DNA of 64,000 bases from Saprospiraceae bacterium. GTDB taxonomy: Bacteria; Bacteroidota; Bacteroidia; Chitinophagales; Saprospiraceae. How positions within the stretch are numbered: the first letter of the stretch is position 1; the number at the start of each line of letters is the position of its first letter. The notes beneath the pieces are model-generated. The model made no database searches, was not told where the DNA came from, and was given only the letters and a program-made list of their open reading frames with translations. Positions 24,758-64,000 of this stretch are shown piece by piece. The stretch spans positions 248,001 to 312,000 of the forward strand of contig JANQLV010000023.1 of the NCBI GenBank assembly GCA_028280415.1. Reading direction: 5' to 3'. Position numbers and translations under genes: made by a program.

Positions 24758-27700
24758 CTGAAAAAACTACTCAAATATCATTTTTCTATCACTAATACTA
24801 ACCTTTGTTTAGTCCGTTTACTTTTTTTTTCAGATTATAAAAAAGTATTTCTTTTCCCGCTCTTTTTTTTAAGCGCCTTATTTTGTACAGCTCAACTGTT
24901 CGAAGAGGTAAAAATTGAACAAAGTATTTTCTTTGATAAAGACGATGGCTTACCGGATAAATCGGTAGGAGCATTTGTAGAAGATTCTATCGGGTTTATC
25001 TGGATGGCTACTGCCTCAGGGTTAACCCGATTCGATGGGACGACTTTTAAAACCTTTCTTCCGGACCCAACTGATTCTACATCCATTTTCACAGAGTTGA
25101 CCTCAAAACTTCTGTTGGCAAAGAATGAAAAGCAACTCTGGGTGGGGACCTTTTATGGTTTGTCCGTAATGGATTTAGAAACTGAAAAGTTTCAAAATTA
25201 TCAATTTGAAAACTACCAACGCAGAGATAGCCTAAGTACCAAAGTTTTGACACGGATATTATGCATCGAAGAAGATAAGCATGGAGGCATCTGGGCGGGA
25301 ACTTATAGCGATGGTTTTTTTCGATACATCCCCGAGCAAGATACTTTTAAAAATTACCATTTTCCTCAAGAAAAGGTGGCACCTCATTTTCCTGTCAAAC
25401 GAAATATTGATCATGGTCTCTCTTTGCTTCAGGATCGTTTTTCTGATACGATTATGTGGGCGGGTACTACCGCCGGTTTACTTAAGATCAATACCCGCAC
25501 CGATAGCATATCCTGGTATCTTTATCCACAAAAAGAAGAGAAAAGGTTTACAGACCAAAATGCCATCCGATCAATTTATCAAGATAAAAAAGGGCTACTG
25601 TATTTATCTTCCTGGTACGCCGGTGTAACTGTTTTTGATCCTAAAACAAAAGTATTCTCTCCTCTGCCAATTCGAAATGAAGATGCAGCAGCGCGCGCAG
25701 AGATCCTGGAGTTTTTGAGCGCGCCTATCGGAGAACTGACGACAAAGAACGATTCAACTTTTTTCATTTCCGGTATCAATGGTTTACTCACTTATGATGT
25801 AGAAAAAAAAATCGGTCTTCGATTACAGAAAAACGATATCAAAAAAAAGATTTTTTACGGCATCAAATATCAAGATCGCCAAAACAGAGTCTGGCATAAA
25901 GCAGGCAATGGCGTTCATGTTTTTAACCCTTTAACTCAGCAATTCATCCAGTATGATTTTGATCATCTAAATGCTGAAAATTTTGGTTATACTTTTCATT
26001 TCCCAATCAAACCAGGTAGTTCCAAACTGAATATCCTCGCGGGTACTTCTACCGGCATTTATTCTATAGATCTTAAAAAAAGACAATGGGAAACATTCTC
26101 CGTGGATAAAAAATATTTTCATCCCGGTGGAGCTTTTCGTCCATCCAGTTACAGTCTGGCCCCCGATGGAACCTGGACAATTTGTGATCGTTTCAATATT
26201 TACCAATACGATGAGCAGTTCAAAAGCTTCACTCCCCTTTATGTTCCGAAGATATATCGTGATAAAGACTACCGCTTTTTATGTTGGGATAAATCGGAAA
26301 GACTTTGGATAGGACTTCATAAAAACGGTCTGCTTAGATGGACACCTAAAACCAATTCATGGAATCATTTCAAAGAAGAACTCACGGATGGACATCCAAC
26401 CGTTTTACCCAACAGAATAACTAAACTATTTGAGGATAGTCAAAACAACCTTTGGATTACACGGCAGGGAGGTTTTAGTATTTATAAAAGTCAACAGGAC
26501 ACTTTCTATAATTTTTTAAACAGTATCAACCCTGATAACTCTTTTGCTCCGATCGCAGAATTTGCCGAAGACCAACAAGGGCGTATGTGGATCAGTTCCT
26601 CCGGAGGGAATCTTGGCTATGCACTGGTCAGTAATCCAGAAAAAGGGATTGTTCGTAAATTTGACCTTCAAGCCTTAGGTGGTATTATTCGTTTTTACAA
26701 AATGAGAGCGGATCAAGCCGGAACGCTTTGGGGGATCAATAAAGATAAATTGATACAAATTGTCGCCACCGGTGATTCGCTTCAGATTAATGCGCACTCT
26801 TTGCTATACGGTATTAAGGATTATGATGATATCTTTGGATTTGAAATATTACCGGATGGTCGAATGGTCTTCGGTGGGTATAACAAATTTTGGCTGGCAG
26901 ACCCAAAATTATTTTTAAAAAACCCCGAAACCGCCAAGCCTTATCTCACCGGAATTTCTGTATTGCAGGAACCGCTAAAAACGAATACGCCTGTACATTT
27001 GGTGCAATCATTATCTCTAGGATATGCCGAAAATTTTTTCTCTTTCGATTTTTCCTCAATAAGTTTTTCCCAGGGGAGAGAAAATCAATTTAGATATCGA
27101 TTAAAAAATTTTGATGACAAATGGGCCGCTCCGCAAAAGCGACGATTTGCTAACTTCACCAATGTCCCTTCGGGTGATTATATCTTCGAACTACAAGTCG
27201 CCAATAACGAAGGTATCTGGAACGAAGCTATTTTTCAGTTACCGGTACACATCGCTACTCCCTGGTGGCGAACGGCCTGGTTCTGGTCTTTTTTTACACT
27301 TGGTGTCCTGGGTATTGCCTATTTGATTTATCAATGGAGAATTGATCAGGTACGAAAAGAAGAACGTTTAAAATCATCTTACGAAAAACAACTTGCCGAT
27401 GTAAAAATGAGCGCACTCCGGGCACAAATGAATCCGCATTTTATTTTCAACTCACTCAATTCTATTGAGTTTTATATTATGAATAATGAGCAGGAAAAAG
27501 CCGTAGATTATCTCGGTCGCTTTTCTCGCCTGATTCGCCTGATTTTACAAAACTCTAAAACCCCACAAATTCCTCTGAAGGATGAACTGGAGGCCCTGAA
27601 AATTTACATGGAGATGGAAAGTATTCGTTTCGGTCATTTGTTTGATTATGAAGTAAAAGCCTCACGGGGTTTATTACAAGAAAATCTCGTCATCCCTCCA

Positions 27701-50541: not shown

Positions 50542-51201
50542 TTACTTTATAATATGGTGTAGGCTACCATCATTTTTTTTTATAGAGTCTACTTCTGGAG
50601 AGATTTTATAAAACTGATAAACATCATCAGCATCTTTATGATCAACAATACTCTGCACTTTTGATAAAGGAATTTCCGAAAGCCATTCCTTTTGTTTTTC
50701 CTTATTATGAATGATAACAGGCATTCGGGGTACAATCTGCTTTAAAGGGCCGGTCGTCGGTTTTGTAATGATCGAAAAACTTTTGATGGCATAATCTCCT
50801 TTGTACCATACATCCCAGATACCGGCTAATAACATCAAATTTTCATTTTGCAAGGTCACTCTATACGGCACTTCTTGTAGTCCTTCTTTTTTCCAGCAAT
50901 AAAAACTATCAGCTAAAATCAAACAACGACGGGACCGGATGGGTATCCGGAAAGAGGGACTGACTGCAATTCCTTCTTTTCGGGCATTGATCAAACGACC
51001 TTCATTTTTCCCATCTCTCGAATGGGCAGGTATTAATCCCCAGGTAATATATTGCATCCTTTGTGGAGATTCATTAAGCAAAACATAGGCATGATGAGTC
51101 GGTGCAATGTTATAACTCCACCGTATATTATTAGCTACCCGTATATCCAGCTGCTCTTCGAGTGCCTTCTCCGTAGATTTGAATGAAAATCGCTTGCACA
51201 T
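50542..51201 (-). CDS. SRAP (HMCES/YedK-like) protein with altered active-site residues
   Basis: This 219-residue protein belongs to the SRAP family, which forms covalent links to abasic sites in single-stranded DNA through Cys2. Cys2 (MCKRFS), the Asn of LINARKEG and WGLIP are kept. Two other conserved active-site positions differ: the usual FYEW motif is FYCW (loss of the glutamate) and the usual H-x-RMP is VPRMPVI (loss of the histidine). It might form a stable crosslink but not reverse it, or act non-catalytically. It is upstream of the putative origin region on the left. Confidence 0.88.
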   Translation of the reverse strand: MCKRFSFKSTEKALEEQLDIRVANNIRWSYNIAPTHHAYVLLNESPQRMQYITWGLIPAHSRDGKNEGRLINARKEGIAVSPSFRIPIRSRRCLILADSFYCWKKEGLQEVPYRVTLQNENLMLLAGIWDVWYKGDYAIKSFSIITKPTTGPLKQIVPRMPVIIHNKEKQKEWLSEIPLSKVQSIVDHKDADDVYQFYKISPEVDSIKKNDGSLHHIIK

Positions 51202-51348
51202 GTAGTTATCTCATTATTAGTATGCTTGAATTCCCTTTTCCTAAATTTAAGCATTTTCAACAGGAAATCATTATCAACACCGGTTTTTTGAGCTATTTAT
51301 AAATACTTCATTTACAATGCATTACAAAATGAAGATTTCAACAAAAAT

Positions 51349-51357
51349 TGTGGATAA
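51349..51357 (-). promoter_or_regulatory. Perfect DnaA box
   Basis: TGTGGATAA is the complement of the consensus TTATCCACA. It lies in the intergenic stretch, followed by TGTGGAAAT (two mismatches). Confidence 0.5.
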
Positions 51358-51774
51358 AAATGTGGAAATCACAGGAAGTTTTAAACAGTTACTAATAATT
51401 TACAAAATTGATATATGTGATAGTTTTATAAAGAACAGTATTTGTTGAATTCCACAAGTATTATAGACATCGATTCACAAGTTTTTAAATTAACAGGAAG
51501 GAAAAGTTACAAATAGAATGACTTACCAACGAGATGTGAGTAACGTTGTATAAATCTGATTTTCAAAAGTTTACATTGTTGAATAGATGTTAGTATTGCT
51601 TTACAAAATATTAACTTTGAATTTACATAAAGAATGTTTCATTTTTTATCTACAAATTAACAGTACTGATGATGATAGGGCTTTTAAAAAAAATTATAAT
51701 AAAAATTATTAGTAGGATGTCAGCAATGTGGAGAAAGATTACAATACCTTTACTTTCCAAATAGAGATGAAGCT

Positions 51775-51782
51775 TAACTTTG
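51775..51782 (+). promoter_or_regulatory. Possible -7 promoter element for heme A synthase
   Basis: TAACTTTG matches TAnnTTTG 50 bases before the ATG at 51833. No good -33 element is visible at the expected spacing. Confidence 0.35.
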
Positions 51783-51832
51783 CTCGACTTTGAATGTTAG
51801 ATAGTTAATCTTGGTAAGATTATATTCTATAC

Positions 51833-52948
51833 ATGACAAAAGATGAAAAGTTTTCTATGCAAGCATTATTTATTCCTCATGATATGATTGGCAGAATGGT
51901 CAAGAACTGGTTGATTCTTGGACTGGTGATGATTTTCTTTCAAGTAGTAATAGGAGGGATTACCCGGCTGACGGAGTCTGGCCTTTCTATAACGGAGTGG
52001 GATATTGTCTGGGGAACTTTGCCACCAATGAGCGAAACAGCCTGGGAAGAAGCATTTGATTTGTATAAAGCGACTCCCCAGTATCAAAAGTTGAATCAGG
52101 GGATGGAGATGGGCTCTATTTTTCAGGCCGAGACGTTTAAGTTCATTTATTTCTGGGAGTATATTCATCGTTTATGGGCTCGTTTGATGGGCTTTGTATT
52201 CATGATTCCTTTTTTATTCTTTTTGCTGACCAGACGCTTTTCCAGAAAGCTTTTCCTGCAATTGATTGTGGTTTTCCTTTTAGCAGCTTTTGTCGCTTCT
52301 CTGGGGTGGATTATGGTTGCTAGTGGATTAATTAACAGACCATGGGTGAATGCTTATAAATTGACATTGCATTTATCTGCCGCTTTTATTTTGTATGGCT
52401 ATTTACTCTGGTCAACTTATGGAGTGATTTTTTCAAAAACTAAAGTTATCCACAATTCTATGTTGAAAAGGTGGGGAATTGTACTTACCTGTGTACTTGC
52501 ACTTCAAATTATTTTAGGTGGAATCATGTCTGGGATGAAGGCCGGCTTATCCTATCCAACCTGGCCGGATATGAATGGTGAATTTATACCCTCACTAATT
52601 TTTGACAGTGCCGAGTGGAATGTGGAAAACTTTGTTGATTACGACAAAAACGGCTTTATGCCAACACTTATTCAAGTATTGCACCGTAGTACAGCTTATT
52701 TGTTGATAATCATTGGTTTATGGTATTTCTTTAAAGCGAAAAAATCAAGGATTACCGGATTATTGAACAAGGGTTTAAATATGTGGATAACTATGTTAGT
52801 AATCCAAATTATCCTCGGTATTATCACTGTAATTAATTGTCGGGGAAGTATTCCGGTTGATTGGGGAGTATTTCATCAGGCAGGGGCATTATTGTTATTG
52901 ACTGCAATGTTGTTTGTTAATTATTTAACTGTGAAAAGCACTAATTAA
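51833..52948 (+). CDS. Heme A synthase (COX15/CtaA family)
   Basis: This 371-residue integral membrane enzyme hydroxylates the C8 methyl of heme O to give heme A, used by aa3-type oxidases. Eight membrane helices carry the conserved histidines in WEYIHRLWARLMGF, YKLTLHLSAAF, LHRSTAYLL and FHQAGALLLL. Type-2 (Cox15-like) length and the loop motif TRLTESGLSITEWDIVWG fit. Two perfect DnaA boxes lie inside the gene. The downstream cytochrome c peroxidase is on the opposite strand. Confidence 0.95.
   Translation: MTKDEKFSMQALFIPHDMIGRMVKNWLILGLVMIFFQVVIGGITRLTESGLSITEWDIVWGTLPPMSETAWEEAFDLYKATPQYQKLNQGMEMGSIFQAETFKFIYFWEYIHRLWARLMGFVFMIPFLFFLLTRRFSRKLFLQLIVVFLLAAFVASLGWIMVASGLINRPWVNAYKLTLHLSAAFILYGYLLWSTYGVIFSKTKVIHNSMLKRWGIVLTCVLALQIILGGIMSGMKAGLSYPTWPDMNGEFIPSLIFDSAEWNVENFVDYDKNGFMPTLIQVLHRSTAYLLIIIGLWYFFKAKKSRITGLLNKGLNMWITMLVIQIILGIITVINCRGSIPVDWGVFHQAGALLLLTAMLFVNYLTVKSTN
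52446..52454 (+). promoter_or_regulatory. Perfect DnaA box inside the heme A synthase gene
   Basis: TTATCCACA occurs in coding sequence. It is one of four perfect boxes within 1.63 kb. A fifth, at 25522 inside a kinase gene, is isolated and probably chance. Confidence 0.4.
52792..52800 (-). promoter_or_regulatory. Perfect DnaA box inside the heme A synthase gene
   Basis: TGTGGATAA lies within the 3' part of the gene, 338 bases after the previous perfect box in the opposite orientation. Confidence 0.4.
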
Positions 52949-52952
52949 CAGC

Positions 52953-52973
52953 TGTGGAAAAGTATGTGGATAA
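52953..52973 (-). promoter_or_regulatory. Perfect DnaA box plus a near-match
   Basis: TGTGGATAA (52965-52973) is preceded by TGTGGAAAA (52953-52961, one mismatch). Both follow the heme A synthase stop codon directly. Two tandem boxes in the same orientation 12 bases apart resemble a DnaA-binding array. Confidence 0.5.
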
Positions 52974-53000
52974 TTGATGATAAATAATGGGATTTATCTA

Positions 53001-53032
53001 AAAAAGGAGCATCATTTAAAAAACGATACTCC
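53001..53032 (-). terminator. Terminator of the cytochrome c peroxidase gene
   Basis: On the minus strand GGAGTATCGTTT (complement of 53021-53032) pairs with AAATGATGCTCC (complement of 53006-53017), including two G-U pairs. TTTTTAG follows. On the plus strand two mismatches break the stem, so it is directional. Confidence 0.75.
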
Positions 53033-53062
53033 TCTCCCTAAGTTTGAATTAGCAAACCTTTA

Positions 53063-54289
53063 TTAAAAAGGGTCGCTCCACTTTTCATTCGTATAGATAT
53101 CGCTACCACTCAAGGTTTTGATAAAAGCAATGATAGCATCTTTTTCATCATCGGTCATATTTAGATTTTGTCCTCCGCCTCTGGCCAGTCTTGGATCCAG
53201 ATTATTATTACCGGCAGCCTGAATATCATTATAGTGATCCAGTACTTCTTCAAAAGTCATAAATGATCCGGTATGCATTAATGGCCCGTTAATCTCTCCA
53301 TTATTATCAAAGATATCTCTCAAAGATGGGGAGCGTGTATTGACCAGATCAGTGCTATTGTCAGCACTGTTGAGCGTTTCGATTACACCATTATTAAGTG
53401 AGTTAGGATCGATATCGAATTCGGGGGCTCGATGGCAACCCTGGCATCCAAGACCTCCACCAATCCTGTTACCTGTATTTCCTTGAAATTGAGAAGGTGC
53501 TGTAAATAGGTTTTTCCCCATATTCTCCTGCTGTGTAAAATTCGGGAATGCCTGGTTATTATTATTTACCATAGCTCTGCCCTGATCGTATTTACTATCG
53601 AAGGACTGGATACTTCGGATAAACTGAGCCATTGCATATTGCATTCTGGTTTCTGTAATCGCTGGATCACCAAAAGCGGCTTCGAATAATGTTTTATAAT
53701 AATCCTGAGTCGACAGTTTTTCAATTAGGTCGTCAATATTGGGATCTCCGTTTTGACCACTAAAACCCATTTCCACATGGTCCTGTATTGGCATAGTTGT
53801 TTGCTGTTCCAGGGTACTGGCTCGTTCATCCCAGAAAAAATTGGTCTCCGTACCAAAACGACTATTGATCAATCTCATTGCATGCCTTCCTGTTGTACCA
53901 TCTACTCCAAGACTGGCAACCGCCGGATCTCCAAAAGCGAACTCCTGCTGGTGACATGAAGCACAGGAGATGGTATTATCTACCGAAAGTTTTTTATCAT
54001 AAAAAAGTACCCTGCCAAGTGTTGCTCCGATATCGGTAATTGGATTTCCTGCAGTATTATCCTTATTGATATAATCGGGGATAGACTGATTGGCATAGTT
54101 AGGCAAATTGTTTAAATCTATTCGCCCATCGAATACCGTTTCCAAATCTGTAATTTCTGTTTCCGGATTGGGTTCTTCAATAGTTGGTTCTTCAATACTG
54201 CTGTCATCATCATTTTTACAAGATGAGAGTACTGTTAATCCTGAAAGTACTAAACAGACCATGAGATAATGCTTCATCTTTCTTATCAT
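53063..54289 (-). CDS. Di-heme cytochrome c peroxidase (MauG/CcpA family) lipoprotein
   Basis: This 408-residue exported enzyme has two heme c motifs, CASCH (about residue 106) and CQGCH (about residue 274), in the di-heme peroxidase family. It probably reduces hydrogen peroxide using periplasmic electrons, or oxidises other substrates (MauG type). The N-terminus MKHYLMVCLVLSGLTVLSSC has a lipobox ending at cysteine, followed by an acidic Ser/Glu-rich linker, so it is a lipoprotein. The start could be the upstream ATG (54289) or the ATG four codons in. Confidence 0.94.
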   Translation of the reverse strand: MIRKMKHYLMVCLVLSGLTVLSSCKNDDDSSIEEPTIEEPNPETEITDLETVFDGRIDLNNLPNYANQSIPDYINKDNTAGNPITDIGATLGRVLFYDKKLSVDNTISCASCHQQEFAFGDPAVASLGVDGTTGRHAMRLINSRFGTETNFFWDERASTLEQQTTMPIQDHVEMGFSGQNGDPNIDDLIEKLSTQDYYKTLFEAAFGDPAITETRMQYAMAQFIRSIQSFDSKYDQGRAMVNNNNQAFPNFTQQENMGKNLFTAPSQFQGNTGNRIGGGLGCQGCHRAPEFDIDPNSLNNGVIETLNSADNSTDLVNTRSPSLRDIFDNNGEINGPLMHTGSFMTFEEVLDHYNDIQAAGNNNLDPRLARGGGQNLNMTDDEKDAIIAFIKTLSGSDIYTNEKWSDPF

Positions 54290-54858
54290 TTTAATGAATA
54301 AATAGTAAAACTGCTATTCATATGTTTATCGATTGTTTGATGAATGAGATAACTGCTTAGACGATGAGGATTAGCCAATCCTTCGAGATTTGTAAGATTT
54401 TTTATATTGAATTTTATTGAATATTTAGGCTTGTAGCTTTTTATGATAAAAGGGTAGAATGGATAGAAGTATGAAATGTTTTGAAAAAATTGCCTTTTTG
54501 CCTGAAAACCGGGCTGAGAATAATGTCTGAAAAATCACGCTATAATAGAGCTAATTTGATTTTTTAAATAATTTATTTGATTTTAAAGTATTGATTATCA
54601 GTATTTTATATAGTTGTTTAAGCATTTTGTATTCATTGTTTAATAAAATTCAGGCTTTGTAAATTTTGTCCTTTCGGATAAAGGATCAGAAGCTAATATT
54701 ATGAGCTACTCAACAATAAAGTTACGGATAACGTGTTTTTATTGTTGTAATTTTTATAAGTTCTGAGATATTGAATTAGTTCTATTTTATAATATTGGTG
54801 TAAAGAAAGAAATATGTTAACTTTGCACTTACCTATTTTATAACTATTTCAAAAATTA
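54290..54858. other. 569-bp divergent intergenic region
   Basis: This is AT-rich sequence between the peroxidase gene and the alpha/beta hydrolase gene, and presumably holds both promoters. Only the hydrolase promoter is convincing (54794-54825). No ORF of note or RNA gene was seen. Because of its AT content and proximity to the DnaA-box cluster it could also belong to the origin region, but it has no perfect DnaA box. Confidence 0.45.
54794..54825 (+). promoter_or_regulatory. Bacteroidota-type promoter of the hydrolase gene
   Basis: ATTGG (54794-54798, -33 region) and TAACTTTG (54818-54825, -7) are separated by 19-20 bases. This matches TTTG-N19-TAnnTTTG with one weak -33 position. The start ATG is 33 bases after the -7 element. 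Confidence 0.55.
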
Positions 54859-55644
54859 ATGGATTACGAAATAAAGGAACAAAACGATTTTAAGTATATA
54901 GAGACAGGAGGGGATGGGGAAGTGTTATTACTACTACATGGTTTATTCGGAGCACTAAGTAATTTTCAAGGAATTATTAATTATTTCAGGAAGGACTACA
55001 ATGTTGTGGTTCCAATGCTCCCGATTTTTGAAATGCCGATAAAAGAAGTATCGGTATCTGGCCTGGTTGACCATGTTACACAATTTGTTGAGTTTAAACA
55101 TTTTGATAAAGTGCATGTACTGGGCAACTCTCTTGGGGGGCATATTACACTTTTGTATGCTTTGGGAAATGCTGAAAAGATAGATTCAATTATTCTGACT
55201 GGTAGCTCCGGGCTTTTTGAGAATTCTCTTGGATCCACATTTCCAAAACGGGGAGATTATGAATTTATCAAAACAAAAACCCAGGCTACTTTCTATGACC
55301 CTACAGTAGCTACGAAAGAGTTGATTGACGAAGTCTATGATATCGTTAATGACCGAAATAAAGCAATACGAATTGTAGCTACAGCCAAGACAGCAGTGCG
55401 GCATAATCTTTCTGATAAATTGCATCAAATCAAAGCACCTACGCTTTTGATCTGGGGGCAACAGGATACGGTGACTCCCGCTTTTGTAGGGGAGAAGTTT
55501 AATGAACTAATTGAAGGTTCAAAACTTGTATTCGTTGATGAATGCGGGCATGCACCAATGATGGAAAAACCCAAGACTTTTAATGATATATTGGAAGAGT
55601 TCCTCAAAGAGTTGGCTACCAAAAGAACAGCTACTGCAGAGTAA
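54859..55644 (+). CDS. Alpha/beta hydrolase
   Basis: This 261-residue cytosolic hydrolase has the nucleophile elbow GNSLGGHITLL (Ser), the acid in GQQDTVTP and the histidine in ECGHAPMMEKP. The oxyanion region is LHGLFGALSNFQG. It is related to 2-hydroxymuconate-type or general carboxylesterase families; the substrate is not evident. It is transcribed alone from the promoter just upstream and ends in a bidirectional terminator before the M1 peptidase gene. Confidence 0.9.
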   Translation: MDYEIKEQNDFKYIETGGDGEVLLLLHGLFGALSNFQGIINYFRKDYNVVVPMLPIFEMPIKEVSVSGLVDHVTQFVEFKHFDKVHVLGNSLGGHITLLYALGNAEKIDSIILTGSSGLFENSLGSTFPKRGDYEFIKTKTQATFYDPTVATKELIDEVYDIVNDRNKAIRIVATAKTAVRHNLSDKLHQIKAPTLLIWGQQDTVTPAFVGEKFNELIEGSKLVFVDECGHAPMMEKPKTFNDILEEFLKELATKRTATAE

Positions 55645-55666
55645 TTTTCTTCCTGAGATCAATTAA

Positions 55667-55702
55667 AAAAGCCAAGATAAGACGATCCTTATCTTGGCTT
55701 TT
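55667..55702. terminator. Bidirectional terminator between hydrolase and M1 peptidase genes
   Basis: A 15-bp stem, AAAAGCCAAGATAAG (55667-55681) with CTTATCTTGGCTTTT (55688-55702), has a six-base loop. It has T-rich tails in both directions and sits between convergent genes. Confidence 0.88.
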
Positions 55703-55725
55703 ATGTTTATAGGTATGTGTATAAA

Positions 55726-58068
55726 TTAATTTGTTCCGGAAGATTTTTTTCCGGCTTTTTCTCTGGCTCTTTTATCTCTTTGCATTTCATTCTCTCTACT
55801 TCCTCTTTGGCGGCTTTTATACATCTCAAAGCGGTTTAGTTGCTTTTTCCTGGGGAAGTAGTTATTATTCGTATCAGTATCAGCTGTTTCAAGAAAAGGA
55901 TCGAGAATGATTTGTTTCGCTGGTTTTGAAGTAATAAAAACCTTGCTTACTTCATCGTGTACCTGTCTCCATATTTCGGCAGGTATTCTTTGCACTTCCG
56001 AAGTACCATCTTCAAATTCAAACTTTACGATCAAAGGCATGGTCAAACCGCCCAGGTTTTCAAAAGTGATTTCGTAATAGTTTTCACCAGATTGTAGTAG
56101 CGTTTTTTCCTCCTCAGACAGAGAAGAAATGTATTTTTGATATTCTTCCTCATCTAGGATATTCGGTTCGTATTTATCCTGATCTGTATAAAAATCCCTT
56201 AACGATTGATCCGTCTCATCATAGGTTTTTTCAATAGCTTTTTCATTTCTGATGCTACTAATATTTCGTGGAGCTTTTTCATCTTCTGCTTTTTTTGCAG
56301 CCAGTTCTATGGATGGATTTTGTGTATCGGCTTGGTACCATTTTACTTCCTTTAAAGCAATATCACAATGATCTGTAGTATAAAACCATCCTCTCCAGAA
56401 CCAATCCAGATCAACACCAGATGCGTCTTCCATGGTACGGAAAAAATCAGCAGGAGAGGGGTGTTTGAATTTCCAGCGATTAGAATATTCCTTGAATGCA
56501 TAATCGAATAATTCGCGTCCCATGATTGTTTCTCGAAGAATATTTAGTCCGGTTGCTGGTTTGGTATAGGCATTAGGGCCAAATTCACCCTGATAAATAG
56601 ATTCGGAATTGGTCATGATAGGGGAAATTCGTGATTTATCTCCGCTCATGTACCGAACTATTTTTTGAGCTTCTCCACCTCTTGATGGATAATCCCTTTC
56701 CCACTGCTGTTCGGACAAATATTGGATAAATGTATTGAGACCTTCGTCCATCCAGGTCCATTGCCTCTCATCGGAATTGACAATCATCGGGAAATAATTA
56801 TGTCCAACTTCGTGTATAATTACACTGATCATTCCATATTTGGTCCGCGAAGTATAGGTGCCATCGCTCTCTGGTCGGCCACCATTAAAACAAATCATAG
56901 GATATTCCATACCTATTCTGTTGGTATGAATAGACCAGGCTACAGGATAAGGGTAATCAAAGGTATAATGGGAATACCATTTGAGCGTATGTGCAACAGC
57001 TTTAGTGGAGTACTTTTCCCAAAGTGGATTACCCTCTTTGGGATACATAGACATTGCCATTACTGTACTTCCGTCACTTTGTTTGACGGCCATAGCATCC
57101 CATATGAACTTTCGGGACGAAGCAAAAGCAAAATCCCGAACATTTTCAGCTTTAAATGTCCAGGTTTTTTTCTTCTTGGATTTTGTTTTTTCATTCTCTT
57201 CAGCTTCTGCCTGAGTAACAATTAAAACTGGTTGTTCAAATGATTGCCTGGCTTCTTCCATTCTTTTTATCTCCTTTTTTGAAAGAACGTTTTTTGTATT
57301 TTGCAAAGTACCGGTGGCTGAGACATAATGATCAGAAGGAACGGTGATATTTACTTCATAGTCGCCAAAGGTAAGTGTAAATTCTCCACGACCTAAAAAT
57401 TGTTTATTTTGCCAGCCTTCTATATCATTATAAACACACATTCTGGGGAAAAACTGGGCAATAGTATAAAGATAATTATCTTCTTCTTCAAAATATTCCA
57501 TTCCGGATCGACCACCAATTTTTGCCCGGTCATTAATATTATACCACCATTTGATATTGAACGTAACACTTTCTCCCTTTTTTAATGCTTTTGGTAAATC
57601 AACCCGCATCATAGTTTTATTGATGGTATAGGGAAGGGGTTTATCATTAGCATCTTTTACATATTCTATATTAAAACCACCATCAAAATCATTTTTAAAC
57701 CGCTTTAACTGTCCTGTACTGATTCTATCGTCTAATTTGTTAGTAGATATTTTATAGGTATCGGAATCTTTTGCTCTACGATTTTGATCTAATTGAAGCC
57801 ATAAATAGGTAAGAGGATCAGGAGAATTATTGAAATAGGTGATGGATTCTTCTCCGTATATCTTTTGATGTTCATCATCCAGGATGATATTCATCTTATA
57901 ATCTGCTTTTTGTTGCCAGTATTCGTGTCCAGGTGCGCCAGAAGCTGTTCTATAGGTGTTTGGAGTAGGAAGTTCCTGACCTAGCTGTCTGAATTTGTTA
58001 TTTTGAGCTAAACTTACAAAGGCAAATAATAATACAAGAAGTGAAAGAGTGTATCTTTTCAAAATCAT
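55726..58068 (-). CDS. M1 family zinc aminopeptidase, exported
   Basis: This 780-residue protein has a signal peptide (1-22). An N-terminal beta domain (about 50-290) precedes the M1 catalytic domain. Zinc ligands are HEVGHNYF and the downstream glutamate of MDEGLNTFIQYL; the substrate-binding GMEYP is present (consensus GAMEN, altered here). The C-terminal half ends in a charged tail (GSRENEMQRDKRAREKAGKK). It probably trims peptides in the periplasm. It is monocistronic and convergent with the hydrolase gene. Confidence 0.92.
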   Translation of the reverse strand: MILKRYTLSLLVLLFAFVSLAQNNKFRQLGQELPTPNTYRTASGAPGHEYWQQKADYKMNIILDDEHQKIYGEESITYFNNSPDPLTYLWLQLDQNRRAKDSDTYKISTNKLDDRISTGQLKRFKNDFDGGFNIEYVKDANDKPLPYTINKTMMRVDLPKALKKGESVTFNIKWWYNINDRAKIGGRSGMEYFEEEDNYLYTIAQFFPRMCVYNDIEGWQNKQFLGRGEFTLTFGDYEVNITVPSDHYVSATGTLQNTKNVLSKKEIKRMEEARQSFEQPVLIVTQAEAEENEKTKSKKKKTWTFKAENVRDFAFASSRKFIWDAMAVKQSDGSTVMAMSMYPKEGNPLWEKYSTKAVAHTLKWYSHYTFDYPYPVAWSIHTNRIGMEYPMICFNGGRPESDGTYTSRTKYGMISVIIHEVGHNYFPMIVNSDERQWTWMDEGLNTFIQYLSEQQWERDYPSRGGEAQKIVRYMSGDKSRISPIMTNSESIYQGEFGPNAYTKPATGLNILRETIMGRELFDYAFKEYSNRWKFKHPSPADFFRTMEDASGVDLDWFWRGWFYTTDHCDIALKEVKWYQADTQNPSIELAAKKAEDEKAPRNISSIRNEKAIEKTYDETDQSLRDFYTDQDKYEPNILDEEEYQKYISSLSEEEKTLLQSGENYYEITFENLGGLTMPLIVKFEFEDGTSEVQRIPAEIWRQVHDEVSKVFITSKPAKQIILDPFLETADTDTNNNYFPRKKQLNRFEMYKSRQRGSRENEMQRDKRAREKAGKKSSGTN

Positions 58069-58164
58069 ATTCTAAAGGGTTTTAATTATTCCGGACAAAT
58101 ATAAAAATAAGAAACCACTGAAAAAGAAATTTGTTGAAGCTTAGTCATGAAATAGTCAGCTAAT

Positions 58165-58226
58165 TGTTCCACGTGAAACATACTGGTGACTATAAATATA
58201 AAACGGTTAATGTTTCACGTGGAACA
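58165..58226. other. Two inverted parS-type sites
   Basis: TGTTCCACGTGAAACA (58165-58180) and TGTTTCACGTGGAACA (58211-58226) are reverse complements of each other. Each matches the bacterial parS consensus TGTTNCACGTGAAACA at all or nearly all positions. ParB binds such sites near the origin and spreads to partition the chromosome. The second copy lies inside a larger palindrome. Both lie between the M1 peptidase and thrC genes. Confidence 0.85.
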
Positions 58227-58237
58227 TTAACCGTTTT
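58201..58237 (-). terminator. Palindrome that may double as the thr operon terminator
   Basis: AAACGGTTAATGTT (58201-58214) pairs with AACATTAACCGTTT (58223-58236), and the loop is the parS core. On the minus strand the stem runs into TTATATTTATAG. It lies 26 bases past the thrC stop. It could end thrC transcription, and the parS core in the loop would be double-stranded in DNA only. Confidence 0.55.
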
Positions 58238-58262
58238 ATACTATATCAATAGGGCAGGTAGA

Positions 58263-59561
58263 CTAATAATTATCTATCAACCAATTTTTAAAAGTCTGAT
58301 AATTAGTATTGAGTAAAGTGGCTTGTTTTTCTTTGTGGGCCAGATTGGCAAGTCTTTCAGGAATATCAATAGTTTTATTTAAAACAGGTTCGACAACATC
58401 GAGGAATTTAGCAGGGTGAGCTGTTTCTAGAATAATTCCCAAGCTTTCCGGATGATTATGCAAATAATCTTTAAAAGCTAAATAGGCAACAGCTCCATGC
58501 GGATCTATTATATAATTATACTTTTCAAAAACTTCCACTATCCCTTCTTTAGTTTCCTGATCATTATAACTGAAACCAGAAATACTTTCTTTCATATTGT
58601 TCCACGTGGAACTATAAATATCCAGCATTCGGGCAAAATTAGAAGGATTACCTACATCCATGGCATTAGAAATCGTAGATATTGATGGTTTGGGTTCATA
58701 ATGACCGGTTTCAAGATAGTGGGGAACAATTTTATTGACATTGGTAGCTGCAATAAAATGAGCAATATTCAATCCCATCTTTTTAGCTAAAAGGCCAGCA
58801 GTTAGATTTCCAAAGTTACCACTGGGAACGGCAAATACAATATCTCTAGATTGATCTACTTGCTTATATGCTTCAAAATAATAAAAAGCCTGAGGAATTA
58901 ACCTTGCTATGTTAATGGAATTGGCAGAACTTAATCGGAGTTTGTTGGTTAATGATTTATCCAAAAAAGCTTTTTTCACCAAAGCCTGGCAATCATCGAA
59001 AGTACCCTGAATTTCCAATGCAGAAATATTATTACCTAAAGTAGTTAATTGCTTTTCCTGAAGGTGACTGACTTTTCCGCTAGGGTAGAGGATTACAACT
59101 TTAATGCCCGGTGTATTATAAAAACCTGCGGCAACAGCGCCTCCTGTATCTCCGGAAGTAGCTACCAGAATAATCAAATCCTGATCTTCGTCTTTATTAA
59201 AATAGCTCATAGTCCGAGCCATAAAGCGTGCTCCGAAATCCTTAAATGCCAGGGAAGGTCCATGAAATAATTCCAGTACATGAAAATTGAAGTCCAGAGC
59301 AACAACAGGTGCAGGAAAGTTAATGGCATCGCCGATAATTTTTTCCAAATCCTGTTCCGGAATACTCTCTTTTAAAAGTGTTCCGGAAATCTCCAATGCA
59401 ACATCTTTGAAACTATACTGAGAAAGATTATTCAAAAAATCTTTAGACAATACAGGAATGAATTCCGGCATAAAGAGACCATTATCATCAGGAAGTCCTT
59501 TCAAAACGGCTTCTTTAAAGGAAACCAAGGCCTTTGAATTTTTGGTACTATAGAGCTGCAT
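58263..59561 (-). CDS. thrC: Threonine synthase
   Basis: This 432-residue PLP enzyme converts O-phosphohomoserine to threonine, the last step of the pathway. The PLP lysine is in GPSLAFKDFGARF, and the phosphate-binding ATSGDTGGAVAAGF and SANSINIARL (substrate motif) follow. Length is typical of the short (type 2) class. It is the last gene of thrABC, 37 bp after thrB. A parS-type palindrome lies inside its coding sequence (58598-58613). Confidence 0.97.
   Translation of the reverse strand: MQLYSTKNSKALVSFKEAVLKGLPDDNGLFMPEFIPVLSKDFLNNLSQYSFKDVALEISGTLLKESIPEQDLEKIIGDAINFPAPVVALDFNFHVLELFHGPSLAFKDFGARFMARTMSYFNKDEDQDLIILVATSGDTGGAVAAGFYNTPGIKVVILYPSGKVSHLQEKQLTTLGNNISALEIQGTFDDCQALVKKAFLDKSLTNKLRLSSANSINIARLIPQAFYYFEAYKQVDQSRDIVFAVPSGNFGNLTAGLLAKKMGLNIAHFIAATNVNKIVPHYLETGHYEPKPSISTISNAMDVGNPSNFARMLDIYSSTWNNMKESISGFSYNDQETKEGIVEVFEKYNYIIDPHGAVAYLAFKDYLHNHPESLGIILETAHPAKFLDVVEPVLNKTIDIPERLANLAHKEKQATLLNTNYQTFKNWLIDNY
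58598..58613. other. parS-type site inside thrC
   Basis: TGTTCCACGTGGAACT contains the perfect 14-bp dyad GTTCCACGTGGAAC. It matches parS at all but the last base and lies in-frame in thrC. With the pair at 58165-58226 this makes three sites within 450 bp. Confidence 0.75.
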
Positions 59562-59598
59562 GATATTTCACTAATTTTGAAAAACGATTATTGGCACT

Positions 59599-60531
59599 TT
59601 ATAAAAGCTTTGCCCCTTCTTGATTGATTGGCGAGATAAATAATTCTGATTCAATTTTTGCATTCGTATAAATTGCCTGCATTTTTTGTCCTACATTTTC
59701 AGCAATCAAACTATTGGCACTCAAGGCAAATATAGAAGGCCCGGCACCAGAAATACTGCAACCAAGCGCTCCTTCTTTAAGTGCTGTTTCTTTTACTTCT
59801 GTAAAATGAGGAATAAGCCTGGCTCGCTGAGGTTCAATAATGACATCCTGTAATGAACGACTAATTAAATCAATATCCGAATTAAAAAGCCCAATTAATA
59901 AACCACCCAGATTACCACTTTGCTGAATTACATTTTTTAAACTTACCTGGTCTGACAAAACATCTCTGGAATCCTTTGTCAGGATTTCGATATGCGGATA
60001 AATAACGCTTGCATAAATACCCTTGGGAATAGCAAGCCGGTGTATGTCCAGCGTTTGATTGTCTCTGATGAAAACCATTCCGCCAATAAGGGAAGGTGCG
60101 ACATTATCCGCATGATAGGCGCCGTCTGCGATTTGTTCCCCCTGAACAGCGAAGGGTAATAATTCTCTTTTGCTTAAAGGCCGCCGGAGAATTTCATTGA
60201 CTGCCATTACTCCGGCTACAGCTGATGCTGCACTGGACCCCAAACCGCTCCCAAAAGGCATTTTCTTGTGAATCTCTAATTCTATTCCTCGCCCCGTTTC
60301 ACCTAAATGCTCCAGTAATTTCATTGCAGCAAAACCAGCGGTGTTCTTTTCCAATTCATAAGGTAGCTTTCCCTTTGCCCCGGTAATTTTGGTAATTCTT
60401 AAACCGGGCTTATCCGAAAACCGGGCAATGATCTCATCTCCTGGTTTTTCAAGCGCAAATCCTAAGATATCAAAACCGACTGCGACATTCGCTACGGAAG
60501 CAGGAGCAAAAACTTTAATTCCAGCGTTCAT
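59599..60531 (-). CDS. thrB: Homoserine kinase
   Basis: This 310-residue GHMP kinase phosphorylates homoserine using ATP. Motif 1, FAPASVANVAVGFDILGFA, and the ATP-binding PFGSGLGSSAASAVAG are clear, as is motif 3 (GCSISGAGPSIFAL). It lies 37 bp after thrA and 37 bp before thrC in the thr operon. Confidence 0.97.
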   Translation of the reverse strand: MNAGIKVFAPASVANVAVGFDILGFALEKPGDEIIARFSDKPGLRITKITGAKGKLPYELEKNTAGFAAMKLLEHLGETGRGIELEIHKKMPFGSGLGSSAASAVAGVMAVNEILRRPLSKRELLPFAVQGEQIADGAYHADNVAPSLIGGMVFIRDNQTLDIHRLAIPKGIYASVIYPHIEILTKDSRDVLSDQVSLKNVIQQSGNLGGLLIGLFNSDIDLISRSLQDVIIEPQRARLIPHFTEVKETALKEGALGCSISGAGPSIFALSANSLIAENVGQKMQAIYTNAKIESELFISPINQEGAKLL

Positions 60532-60568
60532 TTATTTTATAAAATATTGATTATCAATTAATTATGAA

Positions 60569-63025
60569 TTAACTTAGATAACTGCCGATTGAAATAATTT
60601 CTGCAAATACACCAGCGGCTGTAACTTCTGCCCCGGCTCCCGGACCTCGGATTACTAATGGTCTTTCTTTATATCGCTCTGTAGTAAAAATGATCATATT
60701 ATCACTTCCACTCAAGCCATAAAAAGGATGATCTGAATCTACTGCCTCTAAAGCAATAGAAGCTTTTCCACTTTCAAGTTTAGCAATCATTCGAAGCATT
60801 TTTCGATTATCCTCGGCTTCTGATCGAAGCTTTTCGAAATCCTCATCTGCTTTTTCCAGTTCCAAAAACAAGTCCTCAACATTGCTGGCTTCCTGACAGG
60901 CTTTTGGAAGTATATTTTTGATTTGAACATCTTCTGCTTCGATTCCGTATCCGGATTCCCTGGCCAGAATAATTAACTTCCTTCTGACATCAATGCCATT
61001 TAAGTCTATTCTTGGATCGGGCTCTGTATATCCTAAATCTTTAGCCTTTTTGACAATATGACTAAAAGCCGTACCTTTTTTAAATGAATTGAAAATAAAA
61101 GATAGTGATCCGGAGAGGACCCCTTCTATTTTCAGAATCTGATCTCCACTATTGATTAAATCATTTAGCGTTGTAATTACTGGCAGACCTGCACCAACAT
61201 TTGTTTCATACATAAACTGTACGCCTCTTTTCTTGGCAATGGTTTTTAATCTTTGGTATTGCAGATAAGAAGAAGAGGTTGCAATCTTGTTAGGTGTGGA
61301 AATAGAAATACTGGCATCCAAAATGGATTCGTAATAATTGGCAATGGTTTTATCAGCAGTATTATCTATAAAAATTGTATTAGATAAATTAAAATTTTTC
61401 ATTTTGTCGATAAAGGCCGGAAGGTCTGATTTCAGTTCAGCATTAGCTAATACCTCCTTCCAGTTATCAAGATTGATTCCTTCTTCATTAAAATACATTT
61501 TTCTACTATTGGCCAGTCCTATAACTTTTATCTCTAGAGAACGGTGCTCTTTAAGGTGATTACTTTGCTGCTTGATTTGACTAATTAATGTGCTACCAAT
61601 AAGCCCCACACCGACCATGAAAAGATGTAGTTCTTTAGTGTCCGACAGGAAGAATGTTTCATGTAGTGCATTAAGTGCTTTACTTTCATCGACTCGATTA
61701 ATAACAACAGAGACGTTGCGCTCTGATGAACCTTGTGCAATGGCAATACAATTAATACCATTTTTTCCGAGCGCCTGAAAAAGTCTTCCGGCGATTCCGG
61801 GCTGGTAGCGCATGTTTTCACCGATAATCGCAACTACTGCCAGGTCATCTTCTAATTTTACAGGGTCAACCAAACCTAAACGAATTTCATATTCAAACTC
61901 ATTTTCTACACGTTTCTTGGCTTTTTGGGCACTGGACGGTTGTACGGCAAAACTTATAGAATGCTCAGAAGAACCCTGGGTAATCAGGATAATATTGATA
62001 TCAGCCTGTGCAAGTGAATTGAAAAGTCTGGCAGCGATTCCAGGAACACCAAACATCCCGCCTCCTTGTAGAGTCAGGAGTGTAATTTCACTAATCGAAG
62101 AGATTCCTTTTACGGGATGACCATCGATATCGGATTTATTGGAGATAAAAGTTCCGGTGAGTTCCGGTTTGAAAGTATTCTTTATATATAATGGAATTCC
62201 TTTCTTCAAAGCAGGTTGCAGAGTAGGCGGATAAATAACCTTTGCTCCAAAATGAGACATTTCCATGGCCTCTCCGTAGGTCATATTTTTGATAGGAAAT
62301 GCTCTACTTACTTTTCTGGGATCAGCTGTGAGAACACCATCTACATCCGTCCATATTTCAATACAATCTGCATCGAGACCAGCGGCAATAATCGAAGCAG
62401 TATAATCCGAGCCACCCCGGCCCAGAGTCGTGGTTAATCCACCTTTCGAAGAAGAAATAAAACCGGTAATGATTTGTATTTCCGGGTTTTGCAAAAAATA
62501 CTCTTTGACGTTTTGAAAAGTCAAATCAAAATTAACTAAAGCTGCTCCGAAACCTTTATCCGTTTTAATAATCTTACGGGCATCCAGATAATTGGCATTA
62601 ATACCACGTTGTTTGAGCGCCTGTGTAATGATATAAGCAGAATTTCGTTCTCCGAAGCTCAATACATAATCCATAGTTCTTGCAGAAGCTTCTCTCACAA
62701 GAAAAATTCCATGAAGCAAACTTTTTAATACATGGTGATTGCCTTCCAGACCAGTTAAAACCAAACTTAGCATTTCTTCGGACAACAGAGCTTTAGCTAC
62801 GTCATAATGACGAGTACTAAATGCTTCGAAGATTTCTTTATAGGATTCATCGCCTTTGGCAGCTAAACGGGCCATTTCTATAAGCGAATCGGTAGTACCC
62901 CCAAAAGCTGAAAAAACAACGGCGAATTTTTCTCCTTTTGAATAATAGCTTTTAAGTATTTCAATAATACCTTCTATTCTTTCCGGCTTAGCTACAGAGG
63001 AACCTCCGAATTTTAAAACCTTCAT
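60569..63025 (-). CDS. thrA: Bifunctional aspartate kinase/homoserine dehydrogenase
   Basis: This 818-residue fusion catalyses the first and third steps from aspartate to threonine/methionine. The kinase part (about 1-460) has KFGGSSVA, GRGGSDYTAS and two ACT domains around GIAARLF and GIAGRLFQALGKNGIN. The dehydrogenase part (about 465-818) has the NAD(P) motif MVGVGLIGSTL, TNVGAGLPVI and GYTEPDPRIDLNGIDVRRKL. ACT domains suggest allosteric control by threonine or lysine. The ATG at 63025 is preferred; the open frame goes on 25 codons upstream without family resemblance. It heads the thrABC operon. Confidence 0.97.
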   Translation of the reverse strand: MKVLKFGGSSVAKPERIEGIIEILKSYYSKGEKFAVVFSAFGGTTDSLIEMARLAAKGDESYKEIFEAFSTRHYDVAKALLSEEMLSLVLTGLEGNHHVLKSLLHGIFLVREASARTMDYVLSFGERNSAYIITQALKQRGINANYLDARKIIKTDKGFGAALVNFDLTFQNVKEYFLQNPEIQIITGFISSSKGGLTTTLGRGGSDYTASIIAAGLDADCIEIWTDVDGVLTADPRKVSRAFPIKNMTYGEAMEMSHFGAKVIYPPTLQPALKKGIPLYIKNTFKPELTGTFISNKSDIDGHPVKGISSISEITLLTLQGGGMFGVPGIAARLFNSLAQADINIILITQGSSEHSISFAVQPSSAQKAKKRVENEFEYEIRLGLVDPVKLEDDLAVVAIIGENMRYQPGIAGRLFQALGKNGINCIAIAQGSSERNVSVVINRVDESKALNALHETFFLSDTKELHLFMVGVGLIGSTLISQIKQQSNHLKEHRSLEIKVIGLANSRKMYFNEEGINLDNWKEVLANAELKSDLPAFIDKMKNFNLSNTIFIDNTADKTIANYYESILDASISISTPNKIATSSSYLQYQRLKTIAKKRGVQFMYETNVGAGLPVITTLNDLINSGDQILKIEGVLSGSLSFIFNSFKKGTAFSHIVKKAKDLGYTEPDPRIDLNGIDVRRKLIILARESGYGIEAEDVQIKNILPKACQEASNVEDLFLELEKADEDFEKLRSEAEDNRKMLRMIAKLESGKASIALEAVDSDHPFYGLSGSDNMIIFTTERYKERPLVIRGPGAGAEVTAAGVFAEIISIGSYLS

Positions 63026-63195
63026 AGTGTTCTTTATTAATTTATTTAAGTTGCGATGTATGAGATAATTAAAAAACCCTACCTTTTTACAGACAGGCAT
63101 TATTTAGAGTACGATTAATATTTTATTGGTTATAATTTGGTTAGTGAAATATCAAGATGGAATCTTAATAAGTATTATCATGGTCAAAATCCATG

Positions 63196-63651
63196 CTATT
63201 CCGTATGAAGAAGGCGAAGATAGAAATTTTCTTTCATGCTCATCTGTTCTTTTTCTTTATTACTCTTGTCTTTATACCCGAGTAAATGCAGAACACCGTG
63301 GATAATTACCCGATTTAATTCGTTTTCAAAAGAAACCTTAAATTTATCTGCATTTTCTTTAATACGATCAATGCTGATATAAATGTCTCCTTCTACAGAA
63401 GAGTCGCTATACGGAAAAGTGATAATATCCGTATAAGTATCGTGATTGAGGTATTCCAGATTGATTTGATGGAGATAAGCATCGGAACAAAAAATAAAGT
63501 TCAGATTACCAAGTTGTTGATTTTCTTGCCGGATAGTGTCTTTTATCCATTGAATGATAAGCATTTGATTCTTTAAAGTGATATCAACTTCTTCGTTAAA
63601 AAAGTTAATGGATGCTTCCGTCTCGGAAGGAAGCTGGATAAAAGCGGCCAT
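63196..63651 (-). CDS. ybeY: Endoribonuclease YbeY
   Basis: This 151-residue rRNA-maturation RNase has the zinc motif VIIHGVLHLLGYKDKSNKEKEQM. In many phyla it reads HGxLHLxGYDH; the Lys-Asp-Lys ending seen here is typical of Bacteroidota. IITFPYSDSSVEGDIYIS (the conserved RNA-binding region) is present. It lies 12 bp after the RsbW-like gene on the same strand, so the two are probably co-transcribed. Confidence 0.95.
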   Translation of the reverse strand: MAAFIQLPSETEASINFFNEEVDITLKNQMLIIQWIKDTIRQENQQLGNLNFIFCSDAYLHQINLEYLNHDTYTDIITFPYSDSSVEGDIYISIDRIKENADKFKVSFENELNRVIIHGVLHLLGYKDKSNKEKEQMSMKENFYLRLLHTE

Positions 63652-63663
63652 GGATTAGTTAAT

Positions 63664-64000
63664 CTATATATTGAATTGTATCTCGACAGTGCTGCCATTT
63701 TCAGAGAAAACAACATCATCAGAAAGTTGTTTCATCAGAAATACGCCTCTTCCACCTAATTTTAATAAGTTCTCCGGAGCAGTTGGATCAGGAAGTCCGT
63801 CAAAATTAAAACCTCTGCCTTCATCGGAAATTTGAAAAGCAATTTTGTCTTTTTTCTTTTTGAGTTTTACAAAGACTCTTTTAGAAGCATCATTGTCATT
63901 TCCATGAATAATAGCATTGGTAACAGCTTCAGTGAGGCTAATAAGAATATTACCATAGATATCGGGGCTGATATGGTATTTGTCGACCAAGCTCTCCACA
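63664..64000 (-). CDS. RsbW-like ATP-binding protein, cut by the window edge
   Basis: The visible 111 residues are a GHKL ATPase of the anti-sigma RsbW/SpoIIAB type. The N box is in LTEAVTNAIIHGN, the DEGRGFNFDGLPDP motif binds Mg-ATP, and GGRGVFLMKQLSDDV closes the lid. RsbW proteins phosphorylate an STAS anti-anti-sigma factor. The true start lies beyond the window, since family members are about 135-145 residues. An RsbU-like phosphatase is encoded at 41.7 kb. Confidence 0.88.
   Translation of the reverse strand, partial: VESLVDKYHISPDIYGNILISLTEAVTNAIIHGNDNDASKRVFVKLKKKKDKIAFQISDEGRGFNFDGLPDPTAPENLLKLGGRGVFLMKQLSDDVVFSENGSTVEIQFNI

Follow-up and report, generated by a model that had tools for sequence, protein, structure and literature searches.

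A stretch of 64,000 nucleotides from the draft genome of a Saprospiraceae bacterium (81 contigs, 7.10 Mb), referred to as the window, contains a dense group of DnaA boxes in front of, inside and just behind ctaA, the gene for heme A synthase (51833-52948, + strand). The initial annotation proposed a candidate replication origin at this site. This raises the question whether the ctaA locus is the chromosomal oriC and which features of its sequence mark it as such.

DnaA boxes at the ctaA locus

A scan of the window allowing one mismatch detects perfect TTATCCACA boxes at 51349-51357 (-), 52446-52454 (+), 52782-52790 (-) and 52965-52973 (-). The initial annotation had listed the same four boxes in 1.63 kb with one wrong coordinate (52792, which should read 52782). 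It had also placed two of them within ctaA, which holds; the box at 52965 sits just beyond the stop codon. The single further perfect box of the window, at 25522, was confirmed by the scan, and the one-mismatch boxes reported at 51271-51279 (+, TTATCAACA), 51646-51654 (+, TTATCTACA), 51727-51735 (-, TTCTCCACA) and 52953-52961 (-, TTTTCCACA, directly after the ctaA stop) are all present. Two additional one-mismatch boxes of the cluster had been overlooked, both inside the gene (TTTTCCACA at 52621-52629 and TTATCAACA at 52701-52709, both -). The entire genome holds 101 perfect boxes in its 7.10 Mb. A cluster of four within 1.63 kb is expected ~0.0002 times genome-wide by chance, placing the ctaA locus far above background.

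Triple clusters of perfect boxes are found inside long reading frames elsewhere in this genome (G000:C27:78567-80727 and G000:C51:103795-105249). Their chance expectation is about 0.05 and 0.02, respectively, they lack a match to the core described below, and they are possibly DnaA-binding loci or a coincidence.

Named relatives assign the organism to Saprospiraceae. The corresponding region was analysed in 79 related loci, which were chosen by CtaA similarity irrespective of their boxes. In the 500 bp upstream of ctaA the density of perfect boxes rises to 1.2/kb, about 60 times the background of ~0.02/kb found elsewhere; the bins that span distal ctaA and the gene end show 0.56/kb and 0.33/kb. 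In a reversed-sequence control of these loci the density stays at background. Moreover, an open search for 9-mers in the 800 bp upstream ranks TTATCCACA first and TTTTCCACA second. It counts against an origin at this place that 36 of the 79 loci show no perfect box near ctaA. Eight genomes from other families of the order have almost no boxes in 4 kb around the gene. A compact triple box (three perfect boxes in 89 bp, G182:C1:297506-297594) lies 2 Mb from both the core and ctaA of that genome, with no core match in the surrounding 20 kb.

A conserved core in the intergenic region

The left neighbour of the cluster is a SRAP gene (YedK/HMCES-type, Pfam PF02586, E 8e-52) at 50542-51201 on the minus strand. 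The intergenic part between this gene and ctaA (51202-51832) consists of 73.9% A+T compared to 61.9% for the whole window. Only 0.16% of 631-bp windows are equally AT-rich, so the earlier description of this region as AT-rich is borne out. A search of the 64 kb for tRNA genes and Rfam families found none.

When the enriched motif is viewed in its context among the relatives, a core with a fixed order emerges: first TTWTCCACA, then a degenerate second box with ACA at its end, a short spacer that is usually C-rich, and CTR-ATR-ATR-A. AT-rich DNA usually comes next. In the family loci it is mostly located 100-260 bp upstream of ctaA. The window carries this core at 51646-51677, starting 187 bp upstream of ctaA, with an AT-rich stretch at 51682-51712 behind it; these decisive elements had not been recognised in the initial annotation. 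Its first element is the one-mismatch box TTATCTACA at 51646-51654 (+), supported by box scan, core matrix and alignment as the first half of a tandem pair. The degenerate partner AAATTAACA follows at 51654-51662 (+) and corresponds to positions 9-17 of the core alignment, in which ACA is nearly invariant. Positions 22, 25 and 28 of the alignment are T in 99, 95 and 89%, respectively. The bottom strand thus reads 3'-NAN-5' every three bases, the first being 3'-GAY-5'. In the window these DnaA-trios are located at 51666-51677 (-) and read 3'-GAC TAC TAC TAT-5' (top strand CTG ATG ATG ATA). According to the rule for the basal unwinding system (BUS), a DnaA box is followed by at least three 3'-NAN-5' trios within 16 bp (PMC8287927), and the window fits it with TTATCTACA, 11 bp and then the four trios. 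The A+T run TTTTAAAAAAAATTATAATAAAAATTATTAG at 51682-51712 is among the AT-richest 40-mers of the intergenic region and represents a candidate DNA unwinding element. On the other side of the balance, the core box of the window contains a mismatch, and the spacer, GTA, is not GC-rich.

The core was evaluated with a matrix trained on named loci excluding the sequences of the window and of the relatives G267 and G044. This held-out matrix scores 37.8 bits at 51646 with a next best of 7.5 in the window, 39.8 bits in G267 (next 8.8 within the sampled sequence) and 33.0 bits in G044 (next 18.0). A model which includes the window finds a single strong match genome-wide (36.3 bits, the next reaching 19.1). 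A weak core-like match of 19-24 bits at G000:C49:106823-106858, 193 kb from the proposed origin, may be due to chance.

Among 37 chosen family genomes, 23 have a core match; the 14 without one at the threshold used count against the oriC reading. CtaA adjoins the core in thirteen of the matching genomes by coordinates and in seven more by Pfam. In G331 just two perfect boxes are found near the core. Family genomes seemingly lacking ctaA (no strong match) proved, in all seven checked, to carry a divergent CtaA next to the core, and hence provide no test of a core without ctaA.

Such cores are found outside the family. In two distant Bacteroidota genomes (L251 and L256) the core model matches directly beside dnaA. 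Some lineages of the phylum thus seem to have kept oriC at dnaA, and others not. A further family of the order has the core with tandem box, trios and AT-rich run in L243, L245, L246, L248, L255 and L263; its neighbours are nadA plus a SurA-like gene in L246, a SurA-like gene in L243 and an S46 peptidase gene in L255. We consider these loci candidate origins of that family. A clear candidate in another class is G443:C1:12671-13086 (genome of 3.6 Mb, L247), where 5 of 12 perfect boxes fall within 415 bp around the core match; a ComEC-like gene is nearby. Since the core occurs beside dnaA, nadA, the S46 peptidase gene and in the G443 box cluster, it apparently goes with the origin and not with ctaA as such.

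Strand asymmetry at the locus

Averaged over 44 loci, the GC skew turns from negative to positive at ctaA, and the right flank exceeds the left in 37 of them. On the 7.31 Mb chromosome of G044, for which skew was calculated from forty 20-kb samples, the arms show +0.092 and -0.090. The switch falls between the samples at 310 and 378 kb, and seven boxes are located at 378.4-379.1 kb beside ctaA; a second switch at ~4.11 Mb lies half a chromosome from the first. The arms of G267 (4.35 Mb, sampled) are weaker (+0.021 and -0.026). Its switch likewise adjoins ctaA, and the skew minimum in the 20 kb around the gene (2,052,643) falls within a cluster of six boxes.

These data bear on the reading that survives best beside an origin, in which the locus is a DnaA titration or regulatory site (datA/DARS-like), or serves DnaA-controlled transcription of ctaA, while replication starts at some other place. 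Promoters regulated by DnaA boxes are known, the core is 187 bp away from ctaA and the genome contains further triple-box clusters. However, the skew switches at the locus and not merely nearby, trios and an AT-rich element come after the box, and in other families the core is found without ctaA as its neighbour, beside dnaA or between nadA and other genes. We therefore regard this reading as improbable.

For the window and its own contig, raw GC skew is ambiguous before gene strand and codon position are controlled for. The raw cumulative minimum of the contig is at 376,207, 76 kb from the locus, which counts against an origin at ctaA and which the initial annotation, naming a distant skew minimum as grounds for refutation, would have taken as such. 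This holds on the surface only. Between 300 and 376 kb of the contig, the minus strand carries 91% of the coding, with very long frames, and the raw minimum is displaced because this stretch is coded almost wholly on one strand. The cumulative minimum of the third codon positions is at 299,172 (51,172 of the window), i.e. at the left edge of the intergenic region and less than 500 bp from the core. When the contig is split at 300 kb, third-position skew is -0.055 on the left and +0.096 on the right. The breakpoint fit, which uses third-position skew with gene strand as covariate on this one contig of the 81, is broad (296-328 kb), a point against the locus, and clearly worse at 376 kb.

The stretch coded on the minus strand extends from window positions 51700-64000 onward to G000:C49:376000, with frames of up to about 2,700 codons. 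Its coding runs opposite to the leading strand of that arm.

An origin near 376 kb, at the raw minimum, or at dnaA, where many bacteria have their oriC, is very unlikely. Between 300 and 376 kb, genes of either strand already show a positive third-position skew, and neither place has a core or a box cluster. The dnaA gene is located on a separate contig (C32:96180-96665), consistent with the earlier remark that it is not nearby, and the 3.5 kb around it contain no perfect box and one near-match.

Box clustering at ctaA in relatives, the skew switch (in two relatives and at the third codon positions of the own contig) and the held-out matrix of the unwinding core agree independently. Hence the locus next to ctaA is, with high confidence, the chromosomal oriC of this Saprospiraceae bacterium, as the initial annotation had suggested.

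Boxes within ctaA and comparison with known origins

The distal two thirds of ctaA take part in the box cluster. The middle and last thirds of 78 ctaA genes contain 26 perfect boxes vs 2.6 under synonymous-codon shuffling (300 shuffles, maximum 5 boxes per third). Owing to this roughly tenfold excess the in-gene boxes are not coding accidents, which settles the caution voiced earlier that they might be, and selection acts on DnaA boxes within ctaA. Among relatives they recur at codons 205, 263 and 317, and each of these codons has a box in the window (52446, 52621 and 52782). That chance and coding coincidence made the cluster, with some boxes forced by the CtaA protein sequence and others being AT-rich noise, is practically negligible as an explanation: two of the four perfect boxes do lie in coding DNA, but this is opposed by the expectation of ~0.0002 such clusters, the conservation across the family and the shuffle excess. 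The two density peaks and the in-gene excess reveal two separated box groups around the gene, and the in-gene boxes are most simply read as a putative flanking DnaA-binding group.

From the core anatomy and the BUS work cited above, we infer how an origin at ctaA would open. DnaA-ATP would bind the box at 51646 together with the degenerate box in tandem to it, and a DnaA filament would load onto the trios at 51666-51677 on the bottom strand, 3' to 5', toward ctaA. The AT-rich stretch at 51682-51712 would then open and take up the helicase, and two forks would start from there. The remaining boxes, namely the others upstream, those in the distal two thirds of the gene and the pair behind its stop, would act as flanking sub-clusters, which may raise local DnaA or regulate initiation. 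As the origin would span a working respiratory gene, DnaA loading and ctaA transcription might affect each other and tie initiation to aerobic respiration; we offer this as a speculative and rather unlikely extension. It draws, equally tentatively, on codons 205, 263 and 317 being repeatedly kept as boxes.

An oriC is a known kind of element. As far as the literature searched shows, three things are new, namely the location at ctaA retained throughout the family, the core by which it is found and the selected in-gene boxes; no description of a ctaA-linked origin was found in that literature, a partial collection of papers. Skew is the usual means of placing oriC in Bacteroidota, since oriC is commonly distant from dnaA there (PMC4755523). 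With a core motif that marks a single site in each genome, drafts included, origins in this phylum become easier to place. Moreover, in a family with few genetic tools the locus offers a direct starting point for replicating plasmids and for marker-frequency tests. Selection for DnaA boxes within a metabolic gene is unusual and can be tested.

Bipartite origins have a gene between two box clusters. As in those of Helicobacter pylori and Bacillus subtilis (PMC8235120), two box groups flank a gene at the locus analysed here, where they also lie partly within it. In contrast to them, the gene is ctaA and not dnaA, and many boxes of the second group are within coding sequence. Predicted Bacteroidota origins such as that of Prevotella intermedia OMA14 resemble the locus in that boxes cluster at a skew transition and away from dnaA; the passages considered mention neither the core motif nor a conserved ctaA neighbour (PMC4755523).

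The closest counterpart of the core is the BUS of B. subtilis oriC (boxes 6/7 and DnaA-trios; PMC6669920, PMC8287927). Unlike there, the locus adjoins ctaA far from dnaA, the core box has one mismatch, the spacer ends in GTA and is not GC-rich, and the element is known here from its sequence. Both share a box, a degenerate tandem box and a short spacer, followed by trinucleotide repeats whose conserved adenine lies on the strand that runs 3'-5' from the box outward, and then AT-rich DNA. The distance from the conserved box to the first trio is 11 bp at ctaA, within the published BUS peak of 10-13.
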